Shown here: positions 5,164-30,795 of the stretch, piece by piece
Position numbering within the stretch: position 1 is the stretch's first letter
Layout: the number at the start of each line of letters is the position of its first letter
NCBI GenBank assembly: GCA_029721435.1
Contig: CM056574.1
Location: 28,939,001-29,003,000, forward strand
Direction of reading: 5' to 3'
Origin: Gymnothorax reevesii
Taxonomy: Eukaryota; Chordata; Actinopteri; Anguilliformes; Muraenidae
DNA length: 64,000 nt
Position numbers and translations under genes: made by a program
The notes under the pieces: generated by a model
The model's database searches: none
The model's input: the letters and a program-made list of their open reading frames with translations, nothing else
What the model was told of the DNA's origin: nothing

Positions 5164-5367
5164 AGGGGTCCCCAATCTTTCCCAGAAAGGGCCGGTATGG
5201 GTGCAGGCTTTCATTGCAACCAAGCAGCTACACACCTGACGCTACTAATCAAGCTTATGAGCAAAGAATTCAGGGATTGATTAGTAGTATCAGGTGTGTA
5301 ATTGCTTGGTTGCAATGAAAGCCTGCACCCACAGCGGCCCTATCTAGAAAAGATTGGGGACCCCAGC
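5164..5367. repeat. Short palindromic MITE-like element (hAT-type ends)
   Basis: The ends are inverted copies. The left reads CAGGGGTCCCCAATCTTT and the right carries AAAGATTGGGGACCCC. Inside them, GGTGCAGGCTTTCATTGCAA is mirrored by TTGCAATGAAAGCCTGCACC. The whole of about 204 bp folds into one long hairpin with a short central loop. The CAGGGG start resembles hAT MITEs, but I could not find a clean 8-bp target duplication. No coding capacity. Confidence 0.6.
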
Positions 5368-5570
5368 CTAACAGAAGCTAAAAATAAATCAGTTGGCACC
5401 AGCCCCAGGCTGTGTCAGCTAAGAGAAGCTATCGGTGTTGTCTGATAGCATACAGAATTAAGCTGACAGAAATGCAATTGTATTTTATAAGTATTGCCCA
5501 TGGTTTAGTTTACATCTACACCAGGATCACAGGAAGCTCCTCCGTCTTAAAACATAGGCTGTCTCAGTGA

Positions 5571-8050: not shown

Positions 8051-8052
8051 TA

Positions 8053-9653: not shown

Positions 9654-9655
9654 TA

Positions 9656-10620: not shown

Positions 10621-10627
10621 CATCAAT
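10621..10627. repeat. Target-site duplication CATCAAT, left copy
   Basis: CATCAAT lies immediately before the TAC terminus at 10628. The same seven bases follow the GTA terminus at 30789-30795. Sequence outside them differs (CTCAATG on the left, ATATTTTC on the right). This is what a single insertion event of the whole 20-kb unit would leave. Confidence 0.88.
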
Positions 10628-10862
10628 TACGGAAGCTTATTGCTGCCAATGAAAAAAAAAAAAAAATTTCTAATTTTTTTTTTTTCCACAGCTCATTGCT
10701 GCCAATGGGGGAAAAATTTTTTTTAATTTTTTTTTTTCCCACAGCTTATTGCTGCCAATGGGGAAATTTTTTTTTTTTTTTTTCCACAGCTTATAGCTGC
10801 CAACAGGGGAGAATTTTTTATTTTTTTTTCCCACAGCTTATTGCTGCCACTGGTGGGGTGGG
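10628..10862 (+). repeat. Terminal tandem array, left (five units)
   Basis: Five units of about 45-55 bp run from the very terminus. Each has the core CAGCTTATTGCTGCCAATGG (variants CTCATTG, CTTATAGCTGCCAACAGG, GCCACTGG), spaced by poly-A or poly-T blocks. The outermost unit is itself the TIR tip (TACGGAAGCTTATTGCTGCC). Regularly spaced copies of the terminus core are typical of transposase-binding sites. The short ORFs here are by-products of the homopolymers. Confidence 0.75.
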
Positions 10863-11209
10863 GGGATCCACAAAATATTCCCCTGACTTATTTGCAAACC
10901 CTCACTTTGCACTGAATTCACTTCTTGAGCACCCAGTGACTGGAAAACAAAAGACTCAGTTGCCATCTCCTGCCACAGCTGAAAGCCATCTCACTGGAAC
11001 TGCATGTGCAGGGAACCACGAGTAAGCAGCTTGGATTAGTTTCAGTCATGGAAAACTTTTGTTTCCTCTGTAAAATAGAATGCATGCTGCCTTTATTTCT
11101 TTTCTCATTGCTTTCCACACACCCAACACATTGGATGGTTCATGGTCAAACATAATGAATAATGAGGATCAATCAACAGCAGTCCTTTCTTATGGTTGAG
11201 AAGGACAGT

Positions 11210-11481
11210 ACCATAAAAATGGGGTAATAAGGGACGGCTTGGTAACAAGGGACAATTTTCTTGGAAAGTTTTCAAATGCAAATTCAAATTTTTTTTTTGA
11301 CACTCCCTGTCATGATACATTATTGTTAATGATACCTTGGTAGGTACTTGAAAATTGCAAGGTGAGTTGGATATGATTCTATTGTTCTTTTATGATTGAC
11401 AGCAATAACTGACTCATACTTGGCCTGGATGCTTTGGGAGGAATATTAAAAAAGTATCTCTTATTACCCCATTTTACGGTA
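11210..11481. mobile_element. Mariner-type MITE nested in the left arm
   Basis: The ends are inverted: TACCATAAAAATGGGGTAAT on the left mirrors TTACCCCATTTTACGGTA on the right, both bounded by TA. No transposase is encoded. The same unit is present at the matching place in the right arm (about 29939-30211), so it inserted before the arms were duplicated. Confidence 0.6.
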
Positions 11482-12324
11482 CATTGCCAAATGTTCGTGG
11501 GGACTTCTTGGTCTGGGCATCTTTCTCATTAAGGCTAGATCTCTTAATTCTGCTGAAGGAAAATCTTAATGCTGGATCAATCAATCACATTCCAGATTAT
11601 TTTATGCTTCGAGCCGTTTGGGGAAGGCCTGTTCTTGTCACAGCATTACTGCAGTCCTCAGAATGAGGTGCACATGTGGTTTGCTGCCATCACTGTGCGA
11701 ACTCTGTAGTGCTTTTGTGGATGGAATGGTTACAAATATCCAGCGATGCTTAAACATCTAGTAGGAAAGCCTTCCCAGAAGAGTCCATCGTAGCAGCAAA
11801 TGGGGGACCAACTCCTTAATGCCCACAATTTTAAAACGTTGGATGAGCAGATTTCCCCATTCTTTCGTCAATTCAGTGTATTCATACACGTGGTTTCAAA
11901 TTGCATGCCTTTTTCAGGCCATAATGAGGTGCACATTTCTATTCTTACTCAGCGCTACCACACACGATGCGCTGATCACCTAATGACAAAGCCCCTGATT
12001 ACCAAAATCAGGCTGCTCTCAGATAGTCCTAAAGAAAATTGTTCATTGCTTGGATCCCCGCATTGAAAACCATGGTACTAGATTTACTCCTCCTTTCCTA
12101 AGTACAAAAATCAATGTACAACAATAATCACTGAGACATGCACAAAGACAGAGGTGACTCAATGGCAACATGAATATCAAAATATTCCTTTATGAACGTA
12201 AACTTTTCTTCAAGACATAGTATTACTAATTACGTCACGTTTCTGTGACATGCGTACCAATATGCCAACATACATGGGGATAAGTACCTGCAGATAGTGT
12301 GGTATGCGTAATGTGCGACCATAT

Positions 12325-12645
12325 TCTGCCACCAGGTGAACCTTTTTTTTTTTTTTTTTCATACATGAATGTTGCTGCCAGGTGAATTTTTTTTTTTTTT
12401 TTTTTTTCCGTCCACGAATGTTGCTGCCAGGTGAAAAAAAAATAATTTTTTTTTTTTTTTCATCCATGAATGTTGCTGCCAGGTAAAAATTTTTTTTTTA
12501 TTTTTTTTTTTTTGGTCCACGAATGTTGCTGCCAGGTGGGGAAAAAAAAAATAAAATTTTTTTTTCGTCCACGAATGTTGCTGCCAGGTGAAAATAAAAA
12601 AAAAAAAATTTTCATCCATGAATGTTGCTGCCAGGTGGAAAAATA
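12325..12645 (+). repeat. Internal tandem array, left (six full units)
   Basis: Six full units of about 50 bp each carry (C/T)C(A/C)TGAATGTTGCTGCCAGG or CCACGAATGTTGCTGCCAGG, separated by poly-T/poly-A blocks. A degenerate edge unit (TTCTGCCACCAGGTGAA) lies at 12325-12345. The core TTGCTGCCA is shared with the terminal array. The right arm has eight full units at the equivalent place, so this array changes copy number. The apparent lysine- and phenylalanine-rich ORFs are artefacts of the homopolymers. Confidence 0.75.
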
Positions 12646-13192
12646 AATCGGCGTTACTTTATTTAGAAAGAGGGTGCCTTTTTGTCAGTGTTGCAGTGTG
12701 AATGAGGACCGCAGATTTCACCAGTTCAACATTCGCTAATGGAAAGTGTTTTGAAAACGCCATTAACATTAGTTTAAAGCAAGCCATTTAGTTTGTTAAT
12801 TACCTTGTGCATTGATAATGCATGTAAAATCTTAAATTAATTCAAGTCACTGTTTTCAGATTGCAAAGCAGCCGAGCCCTGAGCCAAGTTGTTAGCCTGA
12901 AGTTCTCTTCCAGCCTACGTGCATTGCGCAAGTTTCCCTTTTTAAAGCGCATAACAACGTCAGTACCCTCGGTTGATATATTGAGCCATGTCGCTGAACT
13001 TGCACAAAAATACGTGAAACGCATGTGTAAATTTACAATTTACAATTATAACAACCATCCTTGATGTACAGGCAAATTAACAAACTCGATGACTTGCCAT
13101 AAACTGAGGCCACATCTGTTTATAGGATTTCAAAAGCTCTCACTCAGCAGACAGGCATAATCTGCGCTCCTCCTTCAGATTGCGAGCCCAGT

Positions 13193-13382
13193 CAGCTGAC
13201 TAACCAGAGGACCATCGCCCTGTATCTAAATATAGTAACACAAAAAGCGAAAAAAAAAAAAAAATAGCTTAGCAACCTAGCTATACTGGGCTAGCTCTGT
13301 TGCTAAGCTAATTTTTTTTTTTTTCCGCTTTTTGTGTTACTATATTTAGAAACAGGGCGATGGCCCTCTAGTGAGACAGCTG
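13193..13382. repeat. Long hairpin in the left arm
   Basis: An almost perfect inverted repeat of about 80-90 bp per arm. CCATCGCCCTGTATCTAAAT is mirrored by ATTTAGAAACAGGGCGATGG. Inside, ACACAAAAAGCG plus poly-A mirrors poly-T plus CGCTTTTTGTGT, and AGCTTAGCAAC.TAGCTAT closes the loop around ACTGGGCTAG. It could be a foldback MITE or a structural element of the transposon. The right arm has the same hairpin at about 27940-28119. Confidence 0.7.
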
Positions 13383-13509
13383 AGTAGTGTCTGAGAGACA
13401 TCCACATCTTATGCTTCAAGTGATGATTGCTAATTTTGATAATGTAATGCGTTGTGAAAATGTAAGTTGCTATACTTGATCCTCAAGGGTAAGGCGGCAT
13501 GTATATGGG

Positions 13510-13937
13510 CTAGTAGGAAACATGGTTGATGACTGAGGCAATGTCGCTGAACTTCCTTGCCACAGCTTTTAAAATTCGCGATTGAGGTGTCCTTATGTTG
13601 TCGCTCAAGTTTGTAATCTGACACTGAACTTGTTTTGTAGTAGAAGGAGAACGCGACTCCAAAAACACGCTGACAACCTGGTGTAGCAAACTTCGCGGTG
13701 TTTTACGAAACGCGTCATAGCTGTGGCCGTTAAATCCAGGGCACAGGCTTTTCACTCGCTCAAATGACCATTTTGCGGCATGCAGGTAGTCGATGAGCGA
13801 GCTAGCTGGCCTTTTGCTCAAGTAGAATAACAACTCCCGAGCACTTCGAAGTCTGCACAGTGTAAGTGTATTTGAAATCCTGTCGTTGGGGGAGTAAATT
13901 ATGTCGTGCTGGTGCCTAATTTGGCCGAGCAATGTTA
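13510..13937 (-). CDS. Unrecognised ORF of about 140 codons in the left arm, possible exon
   Basis: A minus-strand frame is open for about 140 codons, ending KFSDIASVINHVSY-stop at 13510. It contains a hydrophobic patch (ARELLFYLSKRPASSLIDYL) and a basic/serine-rich second half. I do not recognise the family. No ATG occurs before the upstream in-frame stop; the frame can only start at TTG 13932. If it is real, it is therefore an internal or terminal exon. A possible splice acceptor (TTCAATTTAG) lies just upstream. It is divergent to the SAM-HECT gene and shares the roughly 0.8-kb region between them, which could be a two-way promoter. The same frame is intact in the right arm (27380-27802). 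It may equally be chance. Confidence 0.25.
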
Positions 13938-14379
13938 TTTCAGCTAAATTGAAGTAACAGCTAAAGTAATAGCTTGCTGTATTTGAAAGCTCCTTTTAAA
14001 ACTGCCTGATAACGTTGGCATGCAAATTAACTTTATATTCACTGAATAGCGACGAAGAACAAACGCTGTAGCTGACTACGAGTAGTTAAATGTCACCGTC
14101 TCGTGGTCATTTCGTTTGCTAGCCAGCTAGTTAGTAGTGAACTAGTTATAATGGACACTAGCATTATTAAGCTTTGGTGGGAGCAAGATTTTCCTACATA
14201 AGCAATGTTCGCTATTTAGCTTACTAGCTGGCGGAGCCAACAGGGAGGTATAACGGTATCAGTTAGCTCGGCCTAGAATCTCGTGAAATCGCTTGTAAGA
14301 GTTAGCGGTTCTGTATAAGTTTGTAGCTAGCATTAAAATTTGACTTCTAAAATTAGAGACATAATGAACCTCATCCAAC

Positions 14380-14710
14380 TATTGTTGCTAGCAAGTGAAT
14401 CACTGCGTATTTTTCTACTCTGTGCAAAGCAGACCGGATTTGCACAAGCTTAGCGTACAATTAACAGTTAACGTAGGTAAAGTTTTGGCTTTCTGGTCAA
14501 ACGTAAGGTAATAAATCAACAAAGGAGATATTCTGTATAACGGATCCATTTGCTTAATTTAAGTTTATAGACGTAAATGCGCTTTCGGAAATTCGTGTGA
14601 CTTCGCTTGCTGTGAAGTTGATGCGCTTGAACATGTGCGCACTTATTGGTTTTATCATAAGAGGAGGACCTGGGACAATTCTCTGACCCTTATTCCTACC
14701 ACCCATCTAG
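14380..14710 (+). promoter_or_regulatory. Probable promoter and 5' UTR region of SAM-HECT gene, left copy
   Basis: The stretch directly upstream of ATG 14711 has no ORF of its own. It is followed by a good coding exon with a clean GT donor. An inverted CCAAT motif (ATTGGT) lies near 14644. No obvious TATA box is placed for the gene. The assignment rests on position only. Confidence 0.3.
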
Positions 14711-17700
14711 ATGGCTGCCGCGGAAGATGCGGAGGAAGACAAAGCCGTTCAATTTCTTAGAGAGAGGGGGGTTGCCGAGGAAGCCCTCGCCCAAATGAAG
14801 GAGCAGAAGGTAAAAAGTACATATTTTGCTTGCATTGACGCGGCGGATACAGAACTGATATAGCTGTGTCGCGCAGTGCACTGTTGACCTAGCATTCACT
14901 ATGCCACCTCGGCCGTCATGTAAGGAGTGAAGTGAGGTTGCAGGGAGGAAAACAAGTTTGACTCTATCACCTTGAAATCCTGTCATGCGAGGATTTGAGA
15001 GATACGAGTTGCGAGGTAACTTATTCATGCTTTGGCTGGAGTGTACAGAAATAATGGGCGGCAAGACTTTGTAGCCCGCGGAGTGCGATCAACTGCCTGC
15101 TGTGTTTAAATTAATCGCTGCTTGTCCTGCAACCCTGCAAATAATATTTCGCGTAATTTTTGCGACTGTAACCCGAAATTGCCTTTTGGCTTCCGAAACT
15201 CAAAGCTATACCAGTGAGCCCCAACTAAGGTTACACCAGATGAGTGAAATCGTCCAAATACCCTGACTCTCTTATCAATGTAAATCAATGCTTGGATTTC
15301 AGAGCAGCGGAACATCGGGTCAGTGGAACTCGCAGTTAGCCCATTGAGTAACCCGTTTGCGGTGTTACCCCTGAACCAATTACGGTATCGTTTGGACGCA
15401 CTTCACTTGCTTCAATGTTGTATACCTGTGTACATTTTAGAAACTTTGCCATGAGGTAATCAGAAATTAAAGCTGGCTAATTTACGTAGCACAGTACTTC
15501 TGACATTTTTGGAAATCATAGAGCCGTATCCAGCAGAATAACAAGTGGACATGGTCTACAACATCCCCCGCAAATCGTGCGCTTCTCATTTTCGAACTCA
15601 ATCAAGGCCTTTATGGTGTGAAGCTACACACCAAATTTGGTGACTGTATCTGTAGTAGTTTCTGAGTAAAGCTGTCCCCTTTATCTCAGATGGACGGACG
15701 CACGGACGGACGCACACACGGACGGACGGACGGACGGACGGAGGTCAAACCTATATCCCCCTCCCACTTCGTGTTGGTGGGGGATAATAAGCCTTCAAGT
15801 TTTATGAAAAGTGAATTAACTTCAAGCTGGTGTGGAAGTTGTCAGGAAAAAAAAGGTCAAGGAGAAGCAAACCACGTGTCCAGCACATCTATGTGAACTT
15901 GTAAAACTGTGCTGATGTGGAATATATGAACATACATCCAAAAGTTTTTTTCCCTTTTTTTTGCTGTATCATGTACCTGAGAAATAATAAGTCATGCAAT
16001 GCATCTTGTTACTTTTACATAATAATTCAACAGAACTCTGTAATTACATTGTGTAAAAGTTTGCTACCATATTTTTCAGATTGATAGCAACACCATTCCA
16101 TGGATTGAGGACAGTGAACTTGCCAAAATTATTCCTAAAATGGGAGACAGAGCAGCTGTGAGACACTACTGCAGAGATTCAAAGGATGAGAGGGAAAGCA
16201 GGAGGATGACACTCTTTGATAAACTGAGAGAGAAAATGGGGATCAAGCCATTTCAGGAGTCTTCAACAGGGCAAAGTCCCTCGCAAATTAAGAACAAACT
16301 AAAGATGAAGACACAGCAAAAAAGGAAAGTTGAGTTTGGCTGGATGCATGATGGCAGAATCATGTGGGCTAGATTTGGGGGGGGTACACGGACTCTGAGA
16401 GTAGATGGTGGTGCCACTCGAGGCGCTCTGCTGCAGATAGCGAAAGATTTGTACTTTCCGATGGGAGTTTCCCCTCAAGGAAAGGCAGAGGATTTTAATT
16501 TGGATATTCTTGATTACAAACAAATGACGCTGTCATCAGAAATGACTGTAGATAGTTTATGTGAAAGCATGCACATGGGCAGAGTTAAATTTTACCTCTC
16601 CAGCATAAAAAAAGTGGAGGAGAAAAATGACAGCAGCCAGAGTAAGCAAAAAGACAAGGCTGCCAAAAGTACAAACACCAGCCCTGTCTGCGCGGAGGCA
16701 AAATCCAATGTCTCTCCAGTTGATGTTCATGAAATCATCGTCACCTCAAGCAGTGATGATGACATTGTCCAGGTTAGACCTCTAAAGAGGTCAGTTCATT
16801 TTGTATCTGATGATGATGATGATGATACTCTTCCCCTTAGCAACTCATCCTCTCTCAATCTGGATGACAGTGACAGCCCACCCCCAAAAAACCGAGATCC
16901 TGATAATCGAACAAAACATCAGCAGTCAGATCTTGGCGGTAGTCCGCCTCCTCAGGCGTTAGTTGCTCAAAGTTCCGCTGTAATGCTGCAGGAGCAATTG
17001 CCTTTGAGGTCCGACAGTAATGCTGAGACTACGTATGTAACCGTGAAAGTACACCGGGTTAATATTCTAAAAGAAATGATGGCACTGTTCAAATCAGAAG
17101 ATATCCTACAAACACACATTAAGTTTAGTTTTGTTGATGAAATGGGATCAGACGCAGAAGGCGTCTCTCGTGAGGCATTCTCTGAATTTTGGAATTATTT
17201 CCTGGCGTCGTGTGCAGAGGGGGAAGATGTGCGTGTCCCAGCATTATGCCCTGAATTTGGATTCCAGGAGTGGCAAGCTGTAGGCAGAATCTTAGTTAAG
17301 GGGTTCTGTACCCACAACGTATTTCCTTTGCAGCTAGCTCCGGCTTTTTTTATTTCTCTGATCTTTGGGGAAGATGCCGTGACACCAAACGATCTTCTCG
17401 AGTCACTTTTTAATTTTGTTAGTCACAACGATCGTGAAGTCTTGCAGAATGCGACCACTGGGCTCATGACCGAAGATGACAAAGAAGTGTTCCTGGAGAT
17501 TCTTGACAGAGAGGGTTTCCATGCACTTCCACCCCAGGATCAGGTGCCTTATGTTCTCCAGCAAATGGCACATAAGAACCTGATCCAGGAGAGCAGCTAT
17601 GCTGTTGAGGCAATGAGGCCCATTGTGCAGGCAGGTCTCGCAGATAAAGTCAGAAATGTTGAAGATGTCAGAAAGATGTACACTAATCTGAGACCAACTG

Positions 17701-18023
17701 CAAAGAAGGTCTGCAGCATACTGCGAGCTAATCCTGCGAACAGAGAACAGGATCAGGCCTTTCGGTACCTACTCCAGTTCGTACGGGCCCAAGACGACCA
17801 CGGTCTAGCAAAATTGCTACATTTCCTCACTGCCTCAAGGGTTCTTAGTGTTGATGACATTAATGTTGAATTTACTGCATCATCTGGAATAGAAAGGAGG
17901 CCGATAGCACACACATGTGGCCCACTGCTGGAGCTCCCAGCTACCTACACCTCATACAGAGATTTTCGAAATGAATGGGAAGCTGTCCTGTCATCTGGGT
18001 ATTGTAGGATGGACATAGCCTAA
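14711..18023 (+). CDS. SAM-HECT E3 ubiquitin ligase-like protein, left copy (join 14711..14809, 16080..18023)
   Basis: Two exons encode 680 aa. Exon 1 (14711-14809, 33 codons) ends CAGAAG|GTAAAA. Exon 2 begins after TATTTTTCAG at 16080, and the junction is phase 0. Residues about 11-64 look like a SAM-type helical domain (FLRERGV...IPWIEDSELAKIIPKMGDR). A conserved block at about 115-212 (VEFGWMHDGRIMWARFGGG, LRVDGGATRGALLQIAKDL) occurs in fish G2/M-phase-specific E3-ligase-like proteins. A SUMO-interaction-like motif (EIIVTSSSDDD) is at 251-261, followed by acidic and serine-rich linkers. The HECT-type domain runs from about 354 to the end: GSDAEGVSREAF, then IAHTCGPLLELP with the expected thioester cysteine at C646. 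HECT enzymes pass ubiquitin through this cysteine to substrates. The frame is fully open with a normal end, so it looks functional. The downstream poly-A signal is AATAAA at 18884. Its role in the transposon is unknown; it may act on host factors or on the transposase. Confidence 0.85.
15541..15790. repeat. Interspersed repeat with (GGAC)n core in the SAM-HECT intron, left arm
   Basis: The intron (14810-16079) carries a repeat-like segment. It includes TTTGGTGACTGTATCTGTAG, a run of GGAC/GCAC units at 15690-15742, and CTATATCCCCCTCCCAC followed by GTTGGTGGGGGATAATAA. This layout of a GGAC run followed by an inverted GGGGGA end is common in fish non-autonomous repeats. The matching segment in the right arm (about 25513-25770) has a slightly different number of GGAC units. 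Confidence 0.45.
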
Positions 18024-18883
18024 AATCTAGCTAATTTACGAGAGCGGAGCGTGACGTAGATAAAAAGATATTGCTGTCAGGCAGATATGGTTGAATGAAT
18101 GGTTTTTGTTTTATTCCAAGGAGCCATATTTGTCCAATTCTCTTAGTTACCGTGCCCAAGACTGGTTTTTACGTGTGTTCTGGTCACTGTCAGTCTTCCA
18201 CATCATCGTCATCCCTCCTTATTTTATATGGAAGACATTGTCATATTGTGGGGTGTTCTGACTGCCTCAAGTTAGGCGAAATTAGCACTGAGACCTCAGA
18301 TTTATTTTTTTTTAAATCTATATTTACTGGTTTGAAGTGAGCTTTGTTAGCTTGTTTGTTCTACAAGTACTTCTCTTTTGTACTTCCCTTACCATATGCC
18401 ACTTTATCTGTGGCTGTGAAATTCGTGGTCCATTTAAGAATGCTGACTTAATTTTCATCTCCGGTCTGATATAGTCCTTAGAGTCTTTTGAAACTGAATT
18501 GCATTAAATTGATGAACAAAAGGCATGGATTATTTGCAGCAGAATGTATTAAATTGAAAAACAATGCTTTGCCATTGAGTTTTAAAATTAAAAAAACATT
18601 TTATTTATACTGCAACAAAATGACCTTGCTGACCATGCAGACTTGTTTTCAATGTATAACATCTTCATGTAGAATGATTCCATGTAATACTTTCCATGGT
18701 TTAGCTTTTTTTCCCCCCAATTCCAGATTAATTCACAGCACTTGTGACAGATTATGTTCATTAAAGGAAAATATTTCGACTTATACACGTCTCAGCTGTT
18801 GAACAACACAAAGAAAACTTACTGTGTGTGCACAGCACAGGTTAGCATTGTCTTGAATTACTAATGCATTCAGGGAAATGATT

Positions 18884-18889
18884 AATAAA
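18884..18889 (+). terminator. Polyadenylation signal AATAAA for SAM-HECT gene, left copy
   Basis: AATAAA sits 861 bp after the stop codon at 18023 on the coding strand and is the first good hexamer I see. It lies only about 130 bp from the 3' end of the convergent integrase gene (19017), so the two transcripts probably meet or overlap tail to tail. Confidence 0.5.
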
Positions 18890-19016
18890 GGTCAGGTGAA
18901 CTTCCTGAAATTTAGCTGGCATGTGTTTGTTTAAAAAAAAAAAGCCGTCAAACAATCCAAGGTTCATACAAACAGTACCTTCTAAGACGGCACCAGTTTT
19001 TCCATGCTGCGTTAAA

Positions 19017-21707
19017 TTACAGGCGTGACTTTATGTAATTTCGCAAGAATATGTACAATTCAATTGCTTCATCAGGACTTTGGGGGGGCTGCAAAATATT
19101 CTCTTCCATAAGCTGGCAGCATAATTCAAAAACAGTCTCATCACAAGGGAAGGGCCCCCTGGGAGTGCACTCCTCTCTGCACGCCAGAATCTGAGCCTCA
19201 GTCACGTGCTGCAGGTGGTCCCCAGCACCATAAAGGTGTGGTGCTGTGTACAAGAGGAAAGGTCGTCCATGTGGTGCTGCTGCATTCCTTGCTGCCCTGA
19301 TGTGGTGCGTGTTCCAAAGGGAAACCAAGCGCTGAAGCTCTTCCTTGAGGGGAGAAATGGGGGGGTGAAATGGCACATTCAGCTTTCAAGAACGGGGAAC
19401 TCATCCCATATTTAGTCATTTGGAGTAGAAGAGAGAGCCAAAAGAGGATGGGGTAGATCATTGTATTACTACAAATATCATCCATCCATTAATACACCGC
19501 TTCCTCCGCACAGGGGTTTCTGGGGAGCTGGAGCGTATCCCACAGGCGAAAGACAAGGAAACACCCTAGGGTGCATTTCCCGAAAGTACAAATGCGAACT
19601 TGCATAACTGCAACCCATCTGCCCCGCTACTATTATCAATCCGCATTTCATTTGAAATTATTATTAACAGTTTGGCTGACACGCGAAGCAGCCTAAAAAG
19701 ATTAAGGCGACTTCAAAGTAGCAACAAAGGATGACTGTCACTGAATATCATTAAACCGAATTTCTTTCCATTTTGGAGATCACGGTGATCAGGTCTCCAT
19801 ACCTGTTAGCCAGTGACGTACAGTCGGAGGTTAGTTTGGTGAGGCAGAAACCTTCCCTTTGCTTGATTAGCAATCAGACGATTAACTAGTTTAGTAAGAC
19901 TATTCGGCAGAATGACGGGCCATTTTAAGTTTCCGCGGCGTTTTTACTCAGTAGGCTACATCGACCTTGAAATGCTCACGAAACTGCAGATTTGCGAGTA
20001 TTTGCTTACAGGAAGCCAGAGACGTGCGGTTGAGATGAGGCAGTGATCCAAACTTTAATGTGACCCAAACTTTCCTGTAGGAAGCCTGATGCTGATAGAG
20101 GAGATAATAACTTAATTCACGTACACGCTGCAATTCGAGACTGCAAGGACGGAAATCTGAATAATCAATTAGGAAAAAGTCTCGGCTCGGTAATTCTGTT
20201 TTAAAACATTTTGTTAATCGGATTACGAAAGAAGACTGAAAATAAACGCCCGCTTTCTGTTTGGGAGTAAAACAGAGTATTTAAAGGAGAATACATTATA
20301 GGCTATTGATTAAGCATTGAACTCTGCATAAGTCGAACTACGGTAATATTTTCTGATGACATTGCTTCGGCCTCCTGGAAGCTAGTAAGCGCAAATCTGC
20401 TGTTGAGCATTTCAGGTTCGATGTACTGAGTAATCACGCCGCGGAAACTTAAACTGGCCCGTCATTCTGCCGAATAGTCATACTAAACTAGTAAATCGTC
20501 TGATTGCTAATGAAGCAAAGGGGAGGTTTTTGCCTCACCAAACTAACCTCCACCGCACGTCACTGCTGTTAGCCTATCTATGCAAGATTTCCGCTCCCGA
20601 GTAAAGGCTCAAGGCTGCTTGACTAGATAGTTTGATTTGCGTCAAGTCCAAGCATCCAATCAATATTACGGCCTTATCAATGACTAAGTCATCACCTTTA
20701 TGTTTGCACATAACATAACTTGAACCAGTTGTGTGTGTTTGTGAACGTTAAGTAGTCTAAATTCCGGGTGAGTGGTATTTCGTATCGCAGGCAAAAAAAA
20801 AATAAAAAATAAAAAAAAAAAAACAATTTTCTTGACCAAAAAACAACGTTAAATAATTAATTAAGACCGACAAACGTACCTCGATTAAATTGAGACAGGT
20901 GAACTGCACGAGGGACTTGTCCAGGAAGTCTCCAGTGAAATTGTCGTCGTCTTTCAGCGACTGAAAACAATTCATCCAAAATTGGGCATGTTGTTTTCGC
21001 AGAAACGCCCACCAGCTTTCTATGCGCTGGTTATGATTGCTGGAACCGTAAATGAAACAATTCCTTGCAAAACGATCCTGATGCTCATATCTGAAAAATC
21101 TCAGCATTTGCTGCACAGTGCCATTTTCCGTTCCCATGTCCGATCGTATTCGAGCAGGACATCCCATCCTATTTTGAACCTGATCAATGAAGTACCCAGC
21201 AATTACCTTCGGGTCACTATTGGTGCAGTAGGTATGCATCCACATAATCATGCGAGAGAAGCCATCAATGGCACCATTGATGCAGATGCCGAATGGCTTC
21301 AACTTGTCGTATGAATCGACGTGCCAAATGAAGTTGGGCCCTGGATTTGAGTACAAACGACGGCGAAGCCGACGTCTGCTTCTGTGTTGGACACCCTCCG
21401 GATCAAGTACTTTCAAAAGGCGCCTAACTGTGTCTTGGGAGGCGACATATCCCTCTTGAATGCATTTAAGATGCATAAGCCTGTAACCATGCAGCTGTCC
21501 ATGTTTTGACAATTCATCACACAGGAACAGTGCCACATCGATCAGGCTGGATCTCTGCTTTCTTCTGTATAATCCTGCGGTTTTTAGGATTCTACGCAAG
21601 GTTCGAATACTCATAACAATACCATCCACGTGAGCTAGACACTGCAAAATGTCTCGATGCCTCAAGCCGAGTTGAAAGTAAAATAATACAACTTCTGTCA
21701 AATCCAT
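19017..21707 (-). CDS. IS3-like integrase/transposase (join 20880..21707, 19017..19343 on minus)
   Basis: Two exons encode 384 aa. The first ATG is at 21707; the GTG three bases upstream is not needed. Exon 1 (21707-20880, 276 codons) ends AATCGAG|GTACGT. Exon 2 starts at 19343 after the pyrimidine-rich acceptor TTTCTCCCCTCAAG, and the junction is phase 0. Residues 1-50 form a helix-turn-helix-like region. Residues 70-100 (HGYRLMHLKCIQEG...DTVRRLLKVL) resemble the HTH_21 region of bacterial IS3 transposases. Residues about 120-250 are an rve-type RNase H-fold core with D131 (WHVDSYDKL), D190 (IRSDMGTENG) and E230 (NQRIESWW), a D-58-D-39-E spacing. This is the expected triad for DNA strand transfer. 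The 1.5-kb intron contains a nested hAT MITE and a common fish repeat. Exon 2 spans the left-arm boundary at about 19257. The gene is convergent with the left SAM-HECT gene. Confidence 0.85.
19482..19566. repeat. Fish interspersed repeat fragment in integrase intron
   Basis: The segment reads ATCATCCATCCATTAATACA, then CCGCTTCCTC, then GGAGCTGGAGCGTATCCCA. This matches, by recognition, the very common fish repeat tail of the type 'CATCCATCCATT...CCGCTTATCC...GGGGGCTGGAGCCTATCCCA'. It lies just outside the arm, in spacer intron sequence. Confidence 0.6.
19803..20573. mobile_element. hAT-type MITE inside the integrase intron, with 8-bp target duplication
   Basis: The element is 755 bp (19811-20565), flanked by perfect 8-bp direct repeats CTGTTAGC (19803-19810 and 20566-20573). 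It has terminal inverted repeats of about 140 bp starting CAGTGACGT. The left TAGTTTGGTGAGGCA and CGGCAGAATGACGGGCC are mirrored on the right. An 8-bp duplication and CAGTG-type ends are typical of hAT transposons. No transposase ORF is present, so it depends on another element. It sits in spacer intron only, so it has no second copy in the palindrome. Confidence 0.85.
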
Positions 21708-22055
21708 CACTGGCCTTAAAACAGACGTTCTTACTAGAGACTTGGTGACAGATGGACAACACGAATGTAGCGGTATCTTGCCACTATAAAGTCAAACTGC
21801 TTCGTTAAAACTCGCAACTCATACTTCTAGCTACAGAAATCAAAGAAACATGACACAACAGCCAACTCATCTGTCTCGCGAGATTTAAAAATTAAAGAAA
21901 TCACGAACCTTTTTCGGAAAGGTCCACGATAAATTCGACAGTGACATAATTTTCATTATTTAGCCTCAAAGCAAGACCGCAATGGATTTGAAATTGAGAT
22001 GAGATCGATCTTTCGGCTATAATTCTTAAAATTTCCTGATTTTCTTATATTTTTT
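21708..22055 (-). promoter_or_regulatory. Probable promoter/5' region of the integrase gene
   Basis: This 348-bp stretch lies between the integrase start codon and the inner edge of the right arm. It has no ORF of note and is AT-rich. Any integrase promoter must lie here or reach into the right arm, where the truncated exon copy begins. No specific element can be assigned. Confidence 0.3.
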
Positions 22056-22056
22056 C

Positions 22057-22293
22057 TTGTACACAGCACCACACCTTTATGGTGCTGGGGACCACCTGCA
22101 GCACGTGACTGAGGCTCAGATTCTGGCGTGCAGAGAGGAGTGCACTCCCAGGGGGCCCTTCCCTTGTGATGAGACTGTTTTTGAATTATGCTGCCAGCTT
22201 ATGGAAGAGAATATTTTGCAGCCCCCCCAAAGTCCTGATGAAGCAATTGAATTGTACATATTCTTGCGAAATTACATAAAGTCACGCCTGTAA
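22057..22293 (+). pseudogene. Truncated copy of integrase exon 2 (C-terminal 78 codons)
   Basis: On the plus strand the frame repeats the last 78 residues of the integrase, from YTAPHLYGAGDHLQHV to FLRNYIKSRL-stop. Upstream, the splice acceptor and the first 30 or so codons of the exon are missing and replaced by unrelated spacer sequence. It has no start codon and no catalytic part, so it is a by-product of the inverted duplication. It fixes the inner breakpoint and shows the left arm is the original context. Confidence 0.9.
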
Positions 22294-22421
22294 TTTAACG
22301 CAGCATGGAAAAACTGGTGCCGTCTTAGAAGGTACTGTTTGTATGAACCTTGGATTGTTTGACGGCTTTTTTTTTTTTAAACAAACACATGCCAGCTAAA
22401 TTTCAGGAAGTTCACCTGACC

Positions 22422-22427
22422 TTTATT
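22422..22427 (-). terminator. Polyadenylation signal for SAM-HECT gene, right copy
   Basis: TTTATT on the plus strand is AATAAA on the coding strand, mirroring the signal at 18884-18889 at the same distance from the stop codon. Confidence 0.5.
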
Positions 22428-23287
22428 AATCATTTCCCTGAATGCATTAGTAATTCAAGACAATGCTAACCTGTGCTGTGCACACACAGTAAGTTTTCTT
22501 TGTGTTGTTCAACAGCTGAGACGTGTATAAGTCGAAATATTTTCCTTTAATGAACATAATCTGTCACAAGTGCTGTGAATTAATCTGGAATTGGGGGGAA
22601 AAAAAGCTAAACCATGGAAAGTATTACATGGAATCATTCTACATGAAGATGTTATACATTGAAAACAAGTCTGCATGGTCAGCAAGGTCATTTTGTTGCA
22701 GTATAAATAAAATGTTTTTTTAATTTTAAAACTCAATGGCAAAGCATTGTTTTTCAATTTAATACATTCTGCTGCAAATAATCCATGCCTTTTGTTAATC
22801 AATTTAATGCAATTCAGTTTCAAAAGACTCTAAGGACTATATCAGACCGGAGATGAAAATTAAGTCAGCATTCTTAAATGGACCACGAATTTCACAGCCA
22901 CAGATAAAGTGGCATATGGTAAGGGAAGTACAAAAGAGAAGTACTTGTAGAACAAACAAGCTAACAAAGCTCACTTCAAACCAGTAAATATAGATTTAAA
23001 AAAAAATAAATCTGAGGTCTCAGTGCTAATTTCGCCTAACTTGAGGCAGTCAGAACACCCCACAATATGACAATGTCTTCCATATAAAATAAGGAGGGAT
23101 GACGATGATGTGGAAGACTGACAGTGACCAGAACACACGTAAAAACCAGTCTTGGGCACGGTAACTAAGAGAATTGGACAAATATGGCTCCTTGGAATAA
23201 AACAAAAACCATTCATTCAACCATATCTGCCTGACAGCAATATCTTTTTATCTACGTCACGCTCCGCTCTCGTAAATTAGCTAGATT

Positions 23288-26200
23288 TTAGGCTATGTCC
23301 ATCCTACAATACCCAGATGACAGGACAGCTTCCCATTCATTTCGAAAATCTCTGTATGAGGTGTAGGTAGCTGGGAGCTCCAGCAGTGGGCCACATGTGT
23401 GTGCTATCGGCCTCCTTTCTATTCCAGATGATGCAGTAAATTCAACATTAATGTCATCAACACTAAGAACCCTTGAGGCAGTGAGGAAATGTAGCAATTT
23501 TGCTAGACCGTGGTCGTCTTGGGCCCGTACGAACTGGAGTAGGTACCGAAAGGCCTGATCCTGTTCTCTGTTCGCAGGATTAGCTCGCAGTATGCTGCAG
23601 ACCTTCTTTGCAGTTGGTCTCAGATTAGTGTACATCTTTCTGACATCTTCAACATTTCTGACTTTATCTGCGAGACCTGCCTGCACAATGGGCCTCATTG
23701 CCTCAACAGCATAGCTGCTCTCCTGGATCAGGTTCTTATGTGCCATTTGCTGGAGAACATAAGGCACCTGATCCTGGGGTGGAAGTGCATGGAAACCCTC
23801 TCTGTCAAGAATCTCCAGGAACACTTCTTTGTCATCTTCGGTCATGAGCCCAGTGGTCGCATTCTGCAAGACTTCACGATCGTTGTGACTAACAAAATTA
23901 AAAAGTGACTCGAGAAGATCGTTTGGTGTCACGGCATCTTCCCCAAAGATCAGAGAAATAAAAAAAGCCGGAGCTAGCTGCAAAGGAAATACGTTGTGGG
24001 TACAGAACCCCTTAACTAAGATTCTGCCTACAGCTTGCCACTCCTGGAATCCAAATTCAGGGCATAATGCTGGGACACGCACATCTTCCCCCTCTGCACA
24101 CGACGCCAGGAAATAATTCCAAAATTCAGAGAATGCCTCACGAGAGACGCCTTCTGCGTCTGATCCCATTTCATCAACAAAACTAAACTTAATGTGTGTT
24201 TGTAGGATATCTTCTGATTTGAACAGTGCCATCATTTCTTTTAGAATATTAACCCGGTGTACTTTCACGGTTACATACGTAGTCTCAGCATTACTGTCGG
24301 ACCTCAAAGGCAATTGCTCCTGCAGCATTACAGCGGAACTTTGAGCAACTAACGCCTGAGGAGGCGGACTACCGCCAAGATCTGACTGCTGATGTTTTGT
24401 TCGATTATCAGGATCTCGGTTTTTTGGGGGTGGGCTGTCACTGTCATCCAGATTGAGAGAGGATGAGTTGCTAAGGGGAAGAGTATCATCATCATCATCA
24501 TCAGATACAAAATGAACTGACCTCTTTAGAGGTCTAACCTGGACAATGTCATCATCACTGCTTGAGGTGACGATGATTTCATGAACATCAACTGGAGAGA
24601 CATTGGATTTTGCCTCCGCGCAGACAGGGCTGGTGTTTGTACTTTTGGCAGCCTTGTCTTTTTGCTTACTCTGGCTGCTGTCATTTTTCTCCTCCACTTT
24701 TTTTATGCTGGAGAGGTAAAATTTAACTCTGCCCATGTGCATGCTTTCACATAAACTATCTACAGTCATTTCTGATGACAGCGTCATTTGTTTGTAATCA
24801 AGAATATCCAAATTAAAATCCTCTGCCTTTCCTTGAGGGGAAACTCCCATCGGAAAGTACAAATCTTTCGCTATCTGCAGCAGAGCGCCTCGAGTGGCAC
24901 CACCATCTACTCTCAGAGTCCGTGTACCCCCCCCAAATCTAGCCCACATGATTCTGCCATCATGCATCCAGCCAAACTCAACTTTCCTTTTTTGCTGTGT
25001 CTTCGTCTTTAGTTTGTTCTTAATTTGCGAGGGACTTTGCCCTGTTGAAGACTCCTGAAATGGCTTGATCCCCATTTTCTCTCTCAGTTTATCAAAGAGT
25101 GTCATCCTCCTGCTTTCCCTCTCATCCTTTGAATCTCTGCAGTAGTGTCTCACAGCTGCTCTGTCTCCCATTTTAGGAATAATTTTGGCAAGTTCACTGT
25201 CCTCAATCCATGGAATGGTGTTGCTATCAATCTGAAAAATATGGTAGCAAACTTTTACACAATGTAATTACAGAGTTCTGTTGAATTATTATGTAAAAGT
25301 AACAAGATGCATTGCATGACTTATTATTTCTCAGGTACATGATACAGCAAAAAAAAAGGGAAAAAAACTTTTGGATGTATGTTCATATATTCCACATCAG
25401 CACAGTTTTACAAGTTCACATAGATGTGCTGGACACGTGGTTTGCTTCTCCTTGACCTTTTTTTTCCTGACAACTTCCACACCAGCTTGAAGTTAATTCA
25501 CTTTTCATAAAACTTGAAGGCTTATTATCCCCCACCAACACGAAGTGGGAGGGGGATATAGGTTTGACCTCCGTCCGTCCGTCCGTCCGTGTGTGTGTGC
25601 GTCCGTCCGTGCGTCCGTCCATCTGAGATAAAGGGGACAGCTTTACTCAGAAACTACTACAGATACAGTCACCAAATTTGGTGTGTAGCTTCACACCATA
25701 AAGGCCTTGATTGAGTTCGAAAATGAGAAGCGCACGATTTGCGGGGGATGTTGTAGACCATGTCCACTTGTTATTCTGCTGGATACGGCTCTATGATTTC
25801 CAAAAATGTCAGAAGTACTGTGCTACGTAAATTAGCCAGCTTTAATTTCTGATTACCTCATGGCAAAGTTTCTAAAATGTACACAGGTATACAACATTGA
25901 AGCAAGTGAAGTGCGTCCAAACGATACCGTAATTGGTTCAGGGGTAACACCGCAAACGGGTTACTCAATGGGCTAACTGCGAGTTCCACTGACCAGATGT
26001 TCCGCTGCTCTGAAATCCAAGCATTGATTTATATTGATAAGAGAGTCAGGGTATTTGGACGATTTCACTCATCTGGTGTAACCTTAGTTGGGGCGCACTG
26101 GTATAGCTTTGAGTTTCGGAAGCCAAAAGGCTATTTCGGGTTACAATCGCAAAAATTACGTGAAATATTATTTGCAGGGTTGCAGGACAAGCAGCGATTA

Positions 26201-26601
26201 ATTTAAACACAGCAGGCAGTTGATCGCACTCCGCGGGCTACAAAGTCTTGCCGCCCATTATTTCTGTACACTCCAGCCAAAGCATGAATAAGTTACCTCG
26301 CAACTCGTATCTCTCAAATCCTCGCATGACAGGATTTCAAGGTGATAGAGTCAAACTTGTTTTCCTCCCTGCAACCTCACTTCACTCCTTACATGACGGC
26401 CGAGGTGGCATAGTGAATGCTAGGTCAACAGTGCACTGCGCGACACAGCTATATCAGTTCTGTATCCGCCGCGTCAATGCAAGCAAAATATGTACTTTTT
26501 ACCTTCTGCTCCTTCATTTGGGCGAGGGCTTCCTCGGCAACCCCCCTCTCTCTAAGAAATTGAACGGCTTTGTCTTCCTCCGCATCTTCCGCGGCAGCCA
26601 T
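23288..26601 (-). CDS. SAM-HECT E3 ubiquitin ligase-like protein, right copy (join 26503..26601, 23288..25231 on minus)
   Basis: This is the inverted twin of the gene at 14711-18023: exon 1 at 26601-26503, intron, exon 2 at 25231-23288. The splice sites are the same (CAGAAG|GTAAAA and TTTTTCAG|ATTGAT). It also encodes 680 aa, with a SAM-like N-terminus, a central conserved block, the SUMO-interaction-like motif and a HECT domain with C646. The only protein difference I find is Thr instead of Met at residue 109, in a basic linker. The frame is fully open, so both copies look able to make the ligase. It is transcribed in the same direction as the integrase and ends about 1.6 kb upstream of the integrase start. 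Confidence 0.85.
25513..25770. repeat. Interspersed repeat with (GTCC)n core in the SAM-HECT intron, right arm
   Basis: Inverted counterpart of the repeat at 15541-15790. The CCGTC/GTCC run at 25570-25622 has a slightly different unit pattern from the left arm. It forms one of the few visible differences between the arms. Confidence 0.45.
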
Positions 26602-27379
26602 CTAGATGGGTGGTAGGAATAAGGGTCAGAGAATTGTCCCAGGTCCTCCTCTTATGATAAAACCAATAAGTGCGCACATGTTCAAGCGCATCAACTTCAC
26701 AGCAAGCGAAGTCACACGAATTTCCGAAAGCGCATTTACGTCTATAAACTTAAATTAAGCAAATGGATCCGTTATACAGAATATCTCCTTTGTTGATTTA
26801 TTACCTTACGTTTGACCAGAAAGCCAAAACTTTACCTACGTTAACTGTTAATTGTACGCTAAGCTTGTGCAAATCCGGTCTGCTTTGCACAGAGTAGAAA
26901 AATACGCAGTGATTCACTTGCTAGCAACAATAGTTGGATGAGGTTCATTATGTCTCTAATTTTAGAAGTCAAATTTTAATGCTAGCTACAAACTTATACA
27001 GAACCGCTAACTCTTACAAGCGATTTCACGAGATTCTAGGCCGAGCTAACTGATACCGTTATACCTCCCTGTTGGCTCCGCCAGCTAGTAAGCTAAATAG
27101 CGAACATTGCTTATGTAGGAAAATCTTGCTCCCACCAAAGCTTAATAATGCTAGTGTCCATTATAACTAGTTCACTACTAACTAGCTGGCTAGCAAACGA
27201 AATGACCACGAGACGGTGACATTTAACTACTCGTAGTCAGCTACAGCGTTTGTTCTTCGTCGCTATTCAGTGAATATAAAGTTAATTTGCATGCCAACGT
27301 TATCAGGCAGTTTTAAAAGGAGCTTTCAAATACAGCAAGCTATTACTTTAGCTGTTACTTCAATTTAGCTGAAATAACA

Positions 27380-27802
27380 TTGCTCGGCCAAATTAGGCAC
27401 CAGCACGACATAATTTACTCCCCCAACGACAGGATTTCAAATACACTTACACTGTGCAGACTTCGAAGTGCTCGGGAGTTGTTATTCTACTTGAGCAAAA
27501 GGCCAGCTAGCTCGCTCATCGACTACCTGCATGCCGCAAAATGGTCATTTGAGCGAGTGAAAAGCCTGTGCCCTGGATTTAACGGCCACAGCTATGACGC
27601 GTTTCGTAAAACACCGCGAAGTTTGCTACACCAGGTTGTCAGCGTGTTTTTGGAGTCGCGTTCTCCTTCTACTACAAAACAAGTTCAGTGTCAGATTACA
27701 AACTTGAGCGACAACATAAGGACACCTCAATCGCGAATTTTAAAAGCTGTGGCAAGGAAGTTCAGCGACATTGCCTCAGTCATCAACCATGTTTCCTACT
27801 AG
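27380..27802 (+). CDS. Unrecognised ORF of about 140 codons, right-arm twin
   Basis: Identical in translation to the ORF at 13510-13937, in mirrored orientation. It has no ATG; the frame can only start at TTG. It runs to the same VINHVSY-stop. The lack of any amino-acid difference agrees with the overall arm identity and does not by itself prove selection. Confidence 0.25.
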   Translation: MLGQIRHQHDIIYSPNDRISNTLTLCRLRSARELLFYLSKRPASSLIDYLHAAKWSFERVKSLCPGFNGHSYDAFRKTPRSLLHQVVSVFLESRSPSTTKQVQCQITNLSDNIRTPQSRILKAVARKFSDIASVINHVSY

Positions 27803-27939
27803 CCCATATACATGCCGCCTTACCCTTGAGGATCAAGTATAGCAACTTACATTTTCACAACGCATTACATTATCAAAATTAGCAATCATCACTTGAAGCA
27901 TAAGATGTGGATGTCTCTCAGACACTACTCAGCTGTCTC

Positions 27940-28119
27940 ACTAGAGGGCCATCGCCCTGTTTCTAAATATAGTAACACAAAAAGCGGAAAAAAAAAAAAT
28001 TAGCTTAGCAACAGAGCTAGCCCAGTATAGCTAGGTTGCTAAGCTATTTTTTTTTTTTTTCGCTTTTTGTGTTACTATATTTAGATACAGGGCGATGGTC
28101 CTCTGGTTAGTCAGCTGAC
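27940..28119. repeat. Long hairpin in the right arm
   Basis: Inverted counterpart of the hairpin at 13193-13382, with the same GCCATCGCCCTGTTTCTAAA / TTTAGATACAGGGCGATGG stem and small poly-A length changes. Confidence 0.7.
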
Positions 28120-28671
28120 TGGGCTCGCAATCTGAAGGAGGAGCGCAGATTATGCCTGTCTGCTGAGTGAGAGCTTTTGAAATCCTATAAACAGATGTGG
28201 CCTCAGTTTATGGCAAGTCATCGAGTTTGTTAATTTGCCTGTACATCAAGGATGGTTGTTATAATTGTAAATTGTAAATTTACACATGCGTTTCACGTAT
28301 TTTTGTGCAAGTTCAGCGACATGGCTCAATATATCAACCGAGGGTACTGACGTTGTTATGCGCTTTAAAAAGGGAAACTTGCGCAATGCACGTAGGCTGG
28401 AAGAGAACTTCAGGCTAACAACTTGGCTCAGGGCTCGGCTGCTTTGCAATCTGAAAACAGTGACTTGAATTAATTTAAGATTTTACATGCATTATCAATG
28501 CACAAGGTAATTAACAAACTAAATGGCTTGCTTTAAACTAATGTTAATGGCGTTTTCAAAACACTTTCCATTAGCGAATGTTGAACTGGTGAAATCTGCG
28601 GTCCTCATTCACACTGCAACACTGACAAAAAGGCACCCTCTTTCTAAATAAAGTAACGCCGATTTATTTTT

Positions 28672-29093
28672 CCACCTGGCAGCAACATTCATGGATGAAA
28701 ATTTTTTTTTTTTTATTTTCACCTGGCAGCAACATTCGTGGACGAAAAAAAAATTTTATTTTTTTTTTCCCCACCTGGCAGCAACATTCGTGGACGAAAA
28801 AAAATAAATAAATAAATAAATTTTCACCTGGCAGCAACATTCATGGATGGAAAAAAAAAAAAATATTTTTTTTTCCCCACCTGGCAGCAACATTCGTGGA
28901 CGAAAAAAAAAAAAATAAAAAAAAAATTTTCACCTGGCAGCAACATTCATGGATGGAAAAAAAAAAAAAATTATTTTTTTTTCACCTGGCAGCAACATTC
29001 GTGGACGGAAAAAAAAAAAAAAAAAAAAATTCACCTGGCAGCAACATTCATGTATGAAAAAAAAAAAAAAAAAAGGTTCACCTGGTGGCAGAA
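28672..29093 (-). repeat. Internal tandem array, right (eight full units)
   Basis: Eight full units carry CCTGGCAGCAACATTC(A/G)TGGA, separated by poly-A/poly-T, against six in the left arm. One spacer has become (AAAT)n near 28801-28820. The array is about 100 bp longer than its left counterpart, and this is the clearest size difference between the arms. Confidence 0.75.
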
Positions 29094-29938
29094 TATGGTC
29101 GCACATTACGCATACCACACTATCTGCAGGTACTTATCCCCATGTATGTCGGCATATTGGTACGCATGTCACAGAAACGTGACGTAATTAGTAATACTAT
29201 GTCTTGAAGAAAAGTTTACATTCATAAAGGAATATTTTGATATTCATGTTGCCATTGAGTCACCTCTGTCTTTGTGCATGTCTCAGTGATTATTGTTGTA
29301 CATTGATTTTTGTACTTAGGAAAGGAGGAGTAAATCTAGTACCATGGTTTTCAATGCGGGGATCCAAGCAATGAACAATTTTCTTTAGGACTATCTGAGA
29401 GCAGCCTGATTTTGGTAATCAGGGGCTTTGTCATTAGGTGATCAGCGCATCGTGTGTGGTAGCGCTGAGTAAGAATAGAAATGTGCACCTCATTATGGCC
29501 TGAAAAAGGCATGCAATTTGAAACCACGTGTATGAATACACTGAATTGACGAAAGAATGGGGAAATCTGCTCATCCAACGTTTTAAAATTGTGGGCATTA
29601 AGGAGTTGGTCCCCCATTTGCTGCTACGATGGACTCTTCTGGGAAGGCTTTCCTACTAGATGTTTAAGCATCGCTGGATATTTGTAACCATTCCATCCAC
29701 AAAAGCACTACAGAGTTCGCACAGTGATGGCAGCAAACCACATGTGCACCTCATTCTGAGGACTGCAGTAATGCTGTGACAAGAACAGGCCTTCCCCAAA
29801 CGGCTCGAAGCATAAAATAATCTGGAATGTGATTGATTGATCCAGCATTAAGATTTTCCTTCAGCAGAATTAAGAGATCTAGCCTTAATGAGAAAGATGC
29901 CCAGACCAAGAAGTCCCCACGAACATTTGGCAATGTAC

Positions 29939-30211
29939 CGTAAAATGGGGTAATAAGAGATACTTTTTTAATATTCCTCCCAAAGCATCCAGGCCAAGTA
30001 TGAGTCAGTTATTGCTGTCAATCATAAAAGAACAATAGAATCATATCCAACTCACCTTGCAATTTTCAAGTACCTACCAAGGTATCATTAACAATAATGT
30101 ATCATGACAGGGAGTGTCAAAAAAAAAATTTGAATTTGCATTTGAAAACTTTCCAAGAAAATTGTCCCTTGTTACCAAGCCGTCCCTTATTACCCCATTT
30201 TTATGGTACTG
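29939..30211. mobile_element. Mariner-type MITE nested in the right arm
   Basis: Inverted counterpart of the MITE at 11210-11481, with ends TACCGTAAAATGGGGTAATA and TTACCCCATTTTTATGGTA. Its presence in both arms dates it before the arm duplication. Confidence 0.6.
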
Positions 30212-30557
30212 TCCTTCTCAACCATAAGAAAGGACTGCTGTTGATTGATCCTCATTATTCATTATGTTTGACCATGAACCATCCAATGTGTTGGGTGTGT
30301 GGAAAGCAATGAGAAAAGAAATAAAGGCAGCATGCATTCTATTTTACAGAGGAAACAAAAGTTTTCCATGACTGAAACTAATCCAAGCTGCTTACTCGTG
30401 GTTCCCTGCACATGCAGTTCCAGTGAGATGGCTTTCAGCTGTGGCAGGAGATGGCAACTGAGTCTTTTGTTTTCCAGTCACTGGGTGCTCAAGAAGTGAA
30501 TTCAGTGCAAAGTGAGGGTTTGCAAATAAGTCAGGGGAATATTTTGTGGATCCCCCC

Positions 30558-30788
30558 ACCCCACCAGTGGCAGCAATAAGCTGTGGGAAAAAAAAATAAA
30601 AAATTCTCCCCTGTTGGCAGCTATAAGCTGTGGAAAAAAAAAAAAAAAATTTCCCCATTGGCAGCAATAAGCTGTGGGAAAAAAAAAAATTAAAAAAAAT
30701 TTTTCCCCCATTGGCAGCAATGAGCTGTGGAAAAAAAAAAAAATTAGAAATTTTTTTTTTTTTTCATTGGCAGCAATAAGCTTCCGTA
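30558..30788 (-). repeat. Terminal tandem array, right (five units)
   Basis: Five units with the core CCATTGGCAGCAATAAGCTG (variants GGCAGCTATAAGC, GGCAGCAATGAGC) end at the terminus GGCAGCAATAAGCTTCCGTA. This is the mirror image of the left array, with small homopolymer changes. Confidence 0.75.
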
Positions 30789-30795
30789 CATCAAT
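30789..30795. repeat. Target-site duplication CATCAAT, right copy
   Basis: Identical to 10621-10627 and directly abutting the GTA terminus of the element. Confidence 0.88.

Follow-up and report, generated by a model that had tools for sequence, protein, structure and literature searches.

In this study, we report a palindromic unit of 20,161 bp located in a 64,000-nucleotide stretch of the genome of Gymnothorax reevesii (GCA_029721435.1, contig CM056574.1, positions 28,939,001 to 29,003,000), hereafter referred to as the window. The whole unit is probably one IS3EU-like DNA transposon. The transposase-side end of its ancestor was likely replaced by an inverted copy of the other end, which carries a gene for a predicted HECT-type ubiquitin ligase, and the likeness of the two resulting 8.7-kb arms has since been maintained, probably by the copying of one arm over the other in the repair that follows movement. 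We hold this reading as a whole to be likely.

Structure of the element

The initial annotation had proposed a single unit flanked by the exact 7-bp repeat CATCAAT. Both repeats are in place, abutting the termini of the element at its TACGG and CCGTA borders (TACGGAAGC... on the left and ...GCTTCCGTA on the right). That the arms are the two ends of one mobile element, as was also claimed, is borne out by these borders together with the duplications found in intact relatives (see below). The features of the element, in window coordinates and with the evidence in brackets, are the following:

10621-10627, no strand: left target-site duplication, CATCAAT (sequence)
10628-30788, no strand: transposon, 20,161 bp, TACGG...CCGTA (sequence, alignments, copies)
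10628-19255, + strand: left arm, 8,628 bp (alignment)
10663-10853, no strand: tandem repeats of the left subterminal region, containing the terminal motif GCTTATTGCTGCCAATG (repeat analysis)
12345-12647, no strand: inner tandem repeat array of the left arm, units of 52/105 bp (repeat analysis)
19256-22054, no strand: unique centre, 2,799 bp (alignment)
22055-30788, - strand: right arm, 8,734 bp, repeating the left arm in inverted orientation (alignment)
28663-29070, no strand: inner tandem repeat array of the right arm, exceeding the left array by one 106-bp unit (repeat analysis, alignment)
30564-30743, no strand: right subterminal tandem repeats (repeat analysis)
30789-30795, no strand: right target-site duplication, CATCAAT (sequence)

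The arms together occupy 17,362 of the 20,161 bp. The terminal inverted repeats are very long, as had been stated, with a measured share (86%) slightly lower than the almost 90% first given. In inverted alignment they are 99.14% identical over 1,972 bp and 99.52% over 6,921 bp. Their global alignment up to the inner boundary contains 20 substitutions, five of which (10666-10673) lie in an A/T tract where the alignment is uncertain, and seven indels, one of them being the 106-bp tandem-unit difference.

The HECT gene of the arms

The repeats had been said to carry full genes, and a 627-codon HECT frame was indeed found in either arm, the two frames being one residue apart. The exons are:

14711-14809, + strand: predicted HECT gene exon 1, left arm (splice prediction)
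16080-18023, + strand: HECT-type E3 ligase exon 2, left arm, with the 627-codon open frame from 16140 (Pfam, alignment, predicted fold)
23288-25231, - strand: HECT-type E3 ligase exon 2, right arm (open frame, alignment)
26503-26601, - strand: predicted HECT gene exon 1, right arm (mirror of 14711-14809 by arm alignment)

The predicted protein would comprise 680 residues, the sum of the 627 codons, the upstream exon and 20 further codons. Pfam detected the HECT domain in the arm protein at 1.9e-7, and the HTC motif expected around the catalytic cysteine of the HECT C-lobe is present, with Cys593 invariant in all 10 proteins aligned. The structural model had a mean predicted local distance difference test score (pLDDT) of 69.5, with about 90 or more at residues 371-560 and less than 50 at 584-595, around the cysteine. 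Its best match in the PDB was the HECT domain of HUWE1 (E 1e-8; template modelling score 0.56 by target and 0.37 by query; root-mean-square deviation 7.9), and it also matched the HECT domains of UBR5 and of NEDD4-type ligases in the structure search, in agreement with a two-lobed fold. A sequence search of the PDB with the same protein gave no match at 0.1. On the basis of the Pfam domain, the HTC motif and the predicted fold, the arm gene is predicted to encode a HECT-type E3 ligase.

A search restricted to proteins having short exact words in common with the query revealed 14 homologues at E 1e-3 (12 of 523-681 residues and two of 344-363), those with names belonging to Holothuria, Crassostrea and Sinanodonta. 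Among viral contigs, five stretches matched a pattern, none of which encoded a relative. With respect to selection, the ratio of nonsynonymous to synonymous substitution rates (dN/dS) of the HECT frame ranged from 0.38 to 0.49 between the window and five other arm copies, all of them partial and four with stops in the compared frame, and was 0.79 between the two arms of C5a, a large old copy on another chromosome. This pattern fits constraint during the active line and its release once a copy has been inserted.

The transposase gene

An IS3-like, integrase-type transposase had been described as enclosed by the arms, in agreement with the integrase core that Pfam recognised (rva_4 at 6e-27, with a weak rve match). 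The gene is predicted to consist of two exons, the second of which also appears in truncated mirror form:

20880-21707, - strand: first predicted exon of the transposase, encoding the integrase core (Pfam rva_4) and ending at a GTACGT donor (Pfam, splice prediction, alignment)
19017-19343, - strand: predicted transposase exon 2, running across the inner limit of the left arm (19255; splice prediction, fit to fish proteins)
22055-22293, + strand: truncated mirror of transposase exon 2, located where the right arm meets the centre (alignment; mirror coordinates computed)

According to the predicted splice, the joined exons give a transposase of 384 residues in an unbroken reading, and the product of exon 2 matches fish proteins such as P0001 at their C-terminal end. 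The arm boundary at 19255 falls within this predicted last exon, so that about 79 C-terminal residues are encoded by the arm. Residues D131, D190 and E230, invariant in the eight aligned proteins, form a putative catalytic triad. The best named database matches were fish proteins, and the only match in a PDB sequence search was at chance level (0.59).

The predicted intron contains a short nested element with inverted repeats (19812-20566), flanked by the 8-bp repeat TGTTAGCC, which we take to be hAT-like on the length of this duplication. C5a lacks it at the same point, presenting an empty site, and a piece of it matches another copy, C14, at 88%. Upstream of the transposase, positions 21911-22004 have 23 scattered short matches in the genome (about 50-85 bp, 76-88%), and another repeat may therefore have contributed part of the promoter region.

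Copies in the genome

The genome assembly searched (G000) comprises 2.17 Gb. The terminal 480 bp of the element gave at least 47 matches in it (best 40 of 156 candidates scored), and 15 other genomic places were compared with the element, eight of which have two opposed ends. Four of these eight have both ends intact, and all four are flanked by matching 6-bp duplications (GTGTCC, CAGGTC, TTAAAT and TCATTA); they provide the further copies, with TAC...GTA ends and duplications of 6-7 bp, that the initial annotation had proposed to look for. Among the remaining two-ended copies, a single end is intact in each of C14, C5a and C1a, and neither end in C8. C6a is a palindrome of only 4.1 kb, about 98% like the ends of the window element. 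Both arms are present in C5a, where they are interrupted by later insertions, and in C7, which was read from two loci and has a central deletion. C21 showed a single end within the 20 kb read.

The ordinary form and the origin of the second HECT gene

The predicted transposase had at least 129 matches in the genome, clustered in 120 loci, and the HECT protein at least 85, clustered in 59 loci; the pairing counts that follow refer to the matches listed and are lower bounds, given that 125 of 685 and 70 of 181 candidates, respectively, were scored. A HECT gene lies within 12 kb of 41 of the 120 transposase loci, the other 79 having none within reach, and it is downstream and convergent in 40 of the 41. 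These paired loci comprise 38 with a single downstream convergent HECT gene, two, the window and C5a, with a HECT gene on either side, and one with HECT upstream. A further 16 HECT loci have no nearby transposase, including both arms of C7. It must be noted that four transposase loci at 99.45-100.36 Mb of C4, each with a HECT gene 6-15 kb downstream, have similar scores and may be segmental copies of one element; therefore, the 41 pairs are not all independent. Transposase and HECT are a recurrent gene pair in this genome. Recent capture of a host gene by the element is unlikely, since HECT is the partner of diverged transposases across the genome.

The ordinary form is represented by C8t, a whole element of 11,279 bp with convergent transposase and HECT genes, TACGG...CCGTA ends, a terminal repeat of about 200 bp at each end (92% identity) and AAAAAT flanking both sides. 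Given this element and the prevalence of the single-HECT order, the two-HECT form is best read as derived: a mirror of the HECT-side end took the place of the transposase-side end and reaches into the last exon of the transposase. The distance from the transposase start is 347 bp to the junction in the window and 357 bp to the element end in C8t, so perhaps little beyond the old end was lost.

The same architecture would also result from a composite origin, in which two opposed two-gene elements were joined by a deletion inside the transposase exon and their outer, HECT-side ends then moved jointly; both outer ends of the unit are in fact HECT-side ends with the terminal motif. This route requires two close insertions plus a deletion ahead of the first joint move, no intermediate was seen, and it accounts for the origin of the palindrome and leaves the later concerted change of its arms unexplained. 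We consider it unlikely, although worth keeping in mind.

Concerted change of the arms

A query spanning the inner junction matched through at only two places in the genome, the window and C5a (88% in the latter). With a through-match at just these two, the junction was rejected as a common break site. If the palindrome had predated the split between the window and C5a and the arms had been left alone, the arms would be expected to group by side; the grouping observed is by copy. Over 4,751 aligned columns, 234 sites were alike within each copy and different between the copies, and no site was either arm-specific or crossed. The two alternative groupings of the window and C5a arms were rejected by the approximately unbiased (AU) test with a p of 7e-45. 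Given 234 copy-specific and no arm-specific sites despite the common junction, the arms of the window and C5a are interpreted as having changed in concert. In the 10 other comparisons, arm-specific sites were 0 in each and crossed sites 0 or 1; left and right are arbitrary in copies without the centre, where these two classes are equivalent. Trees likewise paired the arms by copy in C5a (99.7/100), C8 (100/100) and C14 (99.3/100), and more weakly in C6a (88/76) and C7 (68/66). The outer tree used 19 of 23 arms, leaving out C1aR and C5bR from the start and then C7L and C7R, which had <30% of columns, with C12 and C1b outside the 23 considered.

The resting copy behaves differently from the window line. 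The arms of C5a differ at 448 of the 4,751 sites (about 9%), and at these the window state was kept by the left arm in 223 cases, by the right arm in 205 and by neither in 20. C5a has lost the likeness of its arms since it came to rest and the window line has kept it, which suggests that the copying is linked to movement.

Arms alike at the time of insertion and drifting afterwards, as in C5a and other copies, would also be expected if the palindrome were rebuilt from one arm at each insertion, through a hairpin or a replicative intermediate and without gene conversion. This independent re-formation appears somewhat more doubtful than the composite origin, because one inner boundary common to two copies demands inheritance or a fixed site, and the clustering of arm differences described below suggests that the arms did not come from a single template. 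Long inverted repeats can undergo mutual conversion, and a palindrome at rest might thus keep its arms alike passively, as chromosome palindromes do, with no role for movement. We regard this as improbable in view of the 448 differences in the resting palindrome C5a, interrupted as it is by later insertions. Finally, the folding of one arm by the assembly typically produces long, near-identical inverted arms such as these, and an artefact of this kind is nevertheless extremely improbable because the duplication lies outside both ends, the flanks differ, the 2.8-kb centre is unique, the arms carry differences, and a diverged two-armed copy, C5a, exists on another chromosome.

Several observations weigh against a single transposon with arms kept alike. 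The window duplication has 7 bp and those of its relatives 6 bp; reading it as CATCAA (6 bp), with an additional T at the left end, is equally consistent with the sequence. The exact junction occurs in just one other copy, C5a, whose left end is lost. The arms of C1b show no excess likeness to each other, being 90.4% alike over 218 bp as against 91.2 and 90.6% to the window. No named fish protein is among the 14 HECT homologues of the word-limited search, which is neither for nor against a fish-wide pairing of transposase and HECT. In addition, 6 of 15 counted differences between the window arms are clustered in 167 bp (p about 1e-4; the test took 15 of the 20 substitutions, excluding the five at 10666-10673):

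15151-15317, mirror 26161-25995: patch with six arm differences (alignment)

Within this patch, the right arm agrees with C1a at all three sites where the two can be compared. At the first four of the six sites, the left arm agrees with C5a and C7, so the window arms were not wholly alike. The patch is perhaps a conversion tract from another copy.

Proposed mechanism

With the palindromic transposon still taken as the likely reading, its history may have been as follows. The transposase would cut and join at the TACGG ends, with a stagger of 6-7 bp at insertion, and a sister copy would serve as the template for repair of the excision gap. Since the ends are alike, annealing of a broken end could take place at the wrong terminal repeat, and copying of about 8.6 kb inward followed by rejoining would give a palindrome. 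Such copying inward from the wrong arm would lead either to longer terminal repeats or to arms that are alike. Later rounds of excision and gap repair would keep the arms alike, and interrupted copying would yield small palindromes such as C6a. As an active ubiquitin ligase, the HECT protein might aid the element, perhaps by tagging host proteins that hold it in check.

A bolder description, offered tentatively and considered slightly less likely than not, is that of a self-mending palindromic transposon with two mirror ubiquitin-ligase genes, in which one arm is rewritten from the other at each move and a mutation is either wiped out or fixed in both, within an IS3EU-like group having a HECT ligase as its standard second gene. 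If this were true, it would be an analogue of chromosome palindromes within a mobile element.

Relation to known systems

According to the parts of the literature consulted, IS3EU termini are TA..TA, being TAYGG..CCRTA in fungal members, and the target-site duplication has 6 bp (PMC10045372, PMC12730594). Under the definitions given there, the assignment to the IS3EU group that had been suggested fits by ends and duplication length: TACGG...CCGTA was found in the window and in C8t, and duplications of 6 bp in the four intact relatives and C8t, with 7 bp, or 6 bp and an extra T, in the window. The integrase-like transposase is a further likeness to IS3EU/GingerRoot elements (PMC10045372, PMC12730594, in the same parts). 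On these ends and duplications, the element fits an IS3EU-like type. In fungal members, as described in those sections, a second gene also faces the transposase, encoding an alpha-kinase where the present element has HECT (PMC12730594, PMC10045372). The window element differs from IS3EU/GingerRoot in its HECT second gene and in terminal repeats of 8.7 kb, each with a gene. No paper joining IS3EU and HECT was found in the literature searched, which included few subscription papers and no Repbase.

The terminal repeats of Galileo, a P-superfamily element of Drosophila, lengthen by absorbing inner sequence, in which the last part of the transposase frame is included (69 bp, and more than 500 bp in one copy; PMC4168063, sections consulted), which resembles on a smaller scale the growth of the arms into the transposase end (PMC4168063; PMC3573991). 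Unlike those of the window element, Galileo repeats belong with another transposase superfamily and measure 18-1,250 bp (PMC3573991), and the sections consulted report no whole gene within them (PMC4168063, PMC3573991). Membership of Galileo or the P superfamily was rejected, given that Pfam finds an integrase core and no P-element family.

Foldback-type elements have copies composed nearly wholly of inverted repeats, in which the 4.1-kb C6a resembles them; the window element differs in bearing a transposase and in having an ancestor-like form with short ends, C8t, at hand. Teratorn, a piggyBac-herpesvirus element of fish, is described in the source sections consulted as having a piggyBac transposase, 18-bp terminal inverted repeats, a length of 41-182 kb and virus genes; no sign of these features was found here. 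Gene-bearing mirror arms that are kept alike are also characteristic of chromosome palindromes, for instance those of Y chromosomes. The arms of the active line of the window appear to be kept in the same manner, with the differences that this palindrome moves and that its resting copy has lost the likeness of its arms.

Here, whole genes lie within the terminal repeats of a mobile element, and a recent and an old copy of one palindrome are available for comparison. Since the recent line kept its arms alike and the old copy drifted, the growth and identity of terminal inverted repeats become directly testable. Additionally, with HECT as the regular partner in 40 of 41 pairs, similar HECT genes in sea cucumber, oyster and mussel may be transposon genes.

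Other features of the window

Short self-palindromes lie inside the arms (13192-13383 and 27929-28118), and another is located to the left of the element (5157-5371). Also to its left, an inverted repeat pair (8042-8263 and 9445-9664, window 8042-9664) is 88-89% alike. On the - strand, two adjacent long open frames at 60248-63886 resemble Ty3/gypsy gag-pol and integrase, as judged by a reading of motifs, no search having been made.

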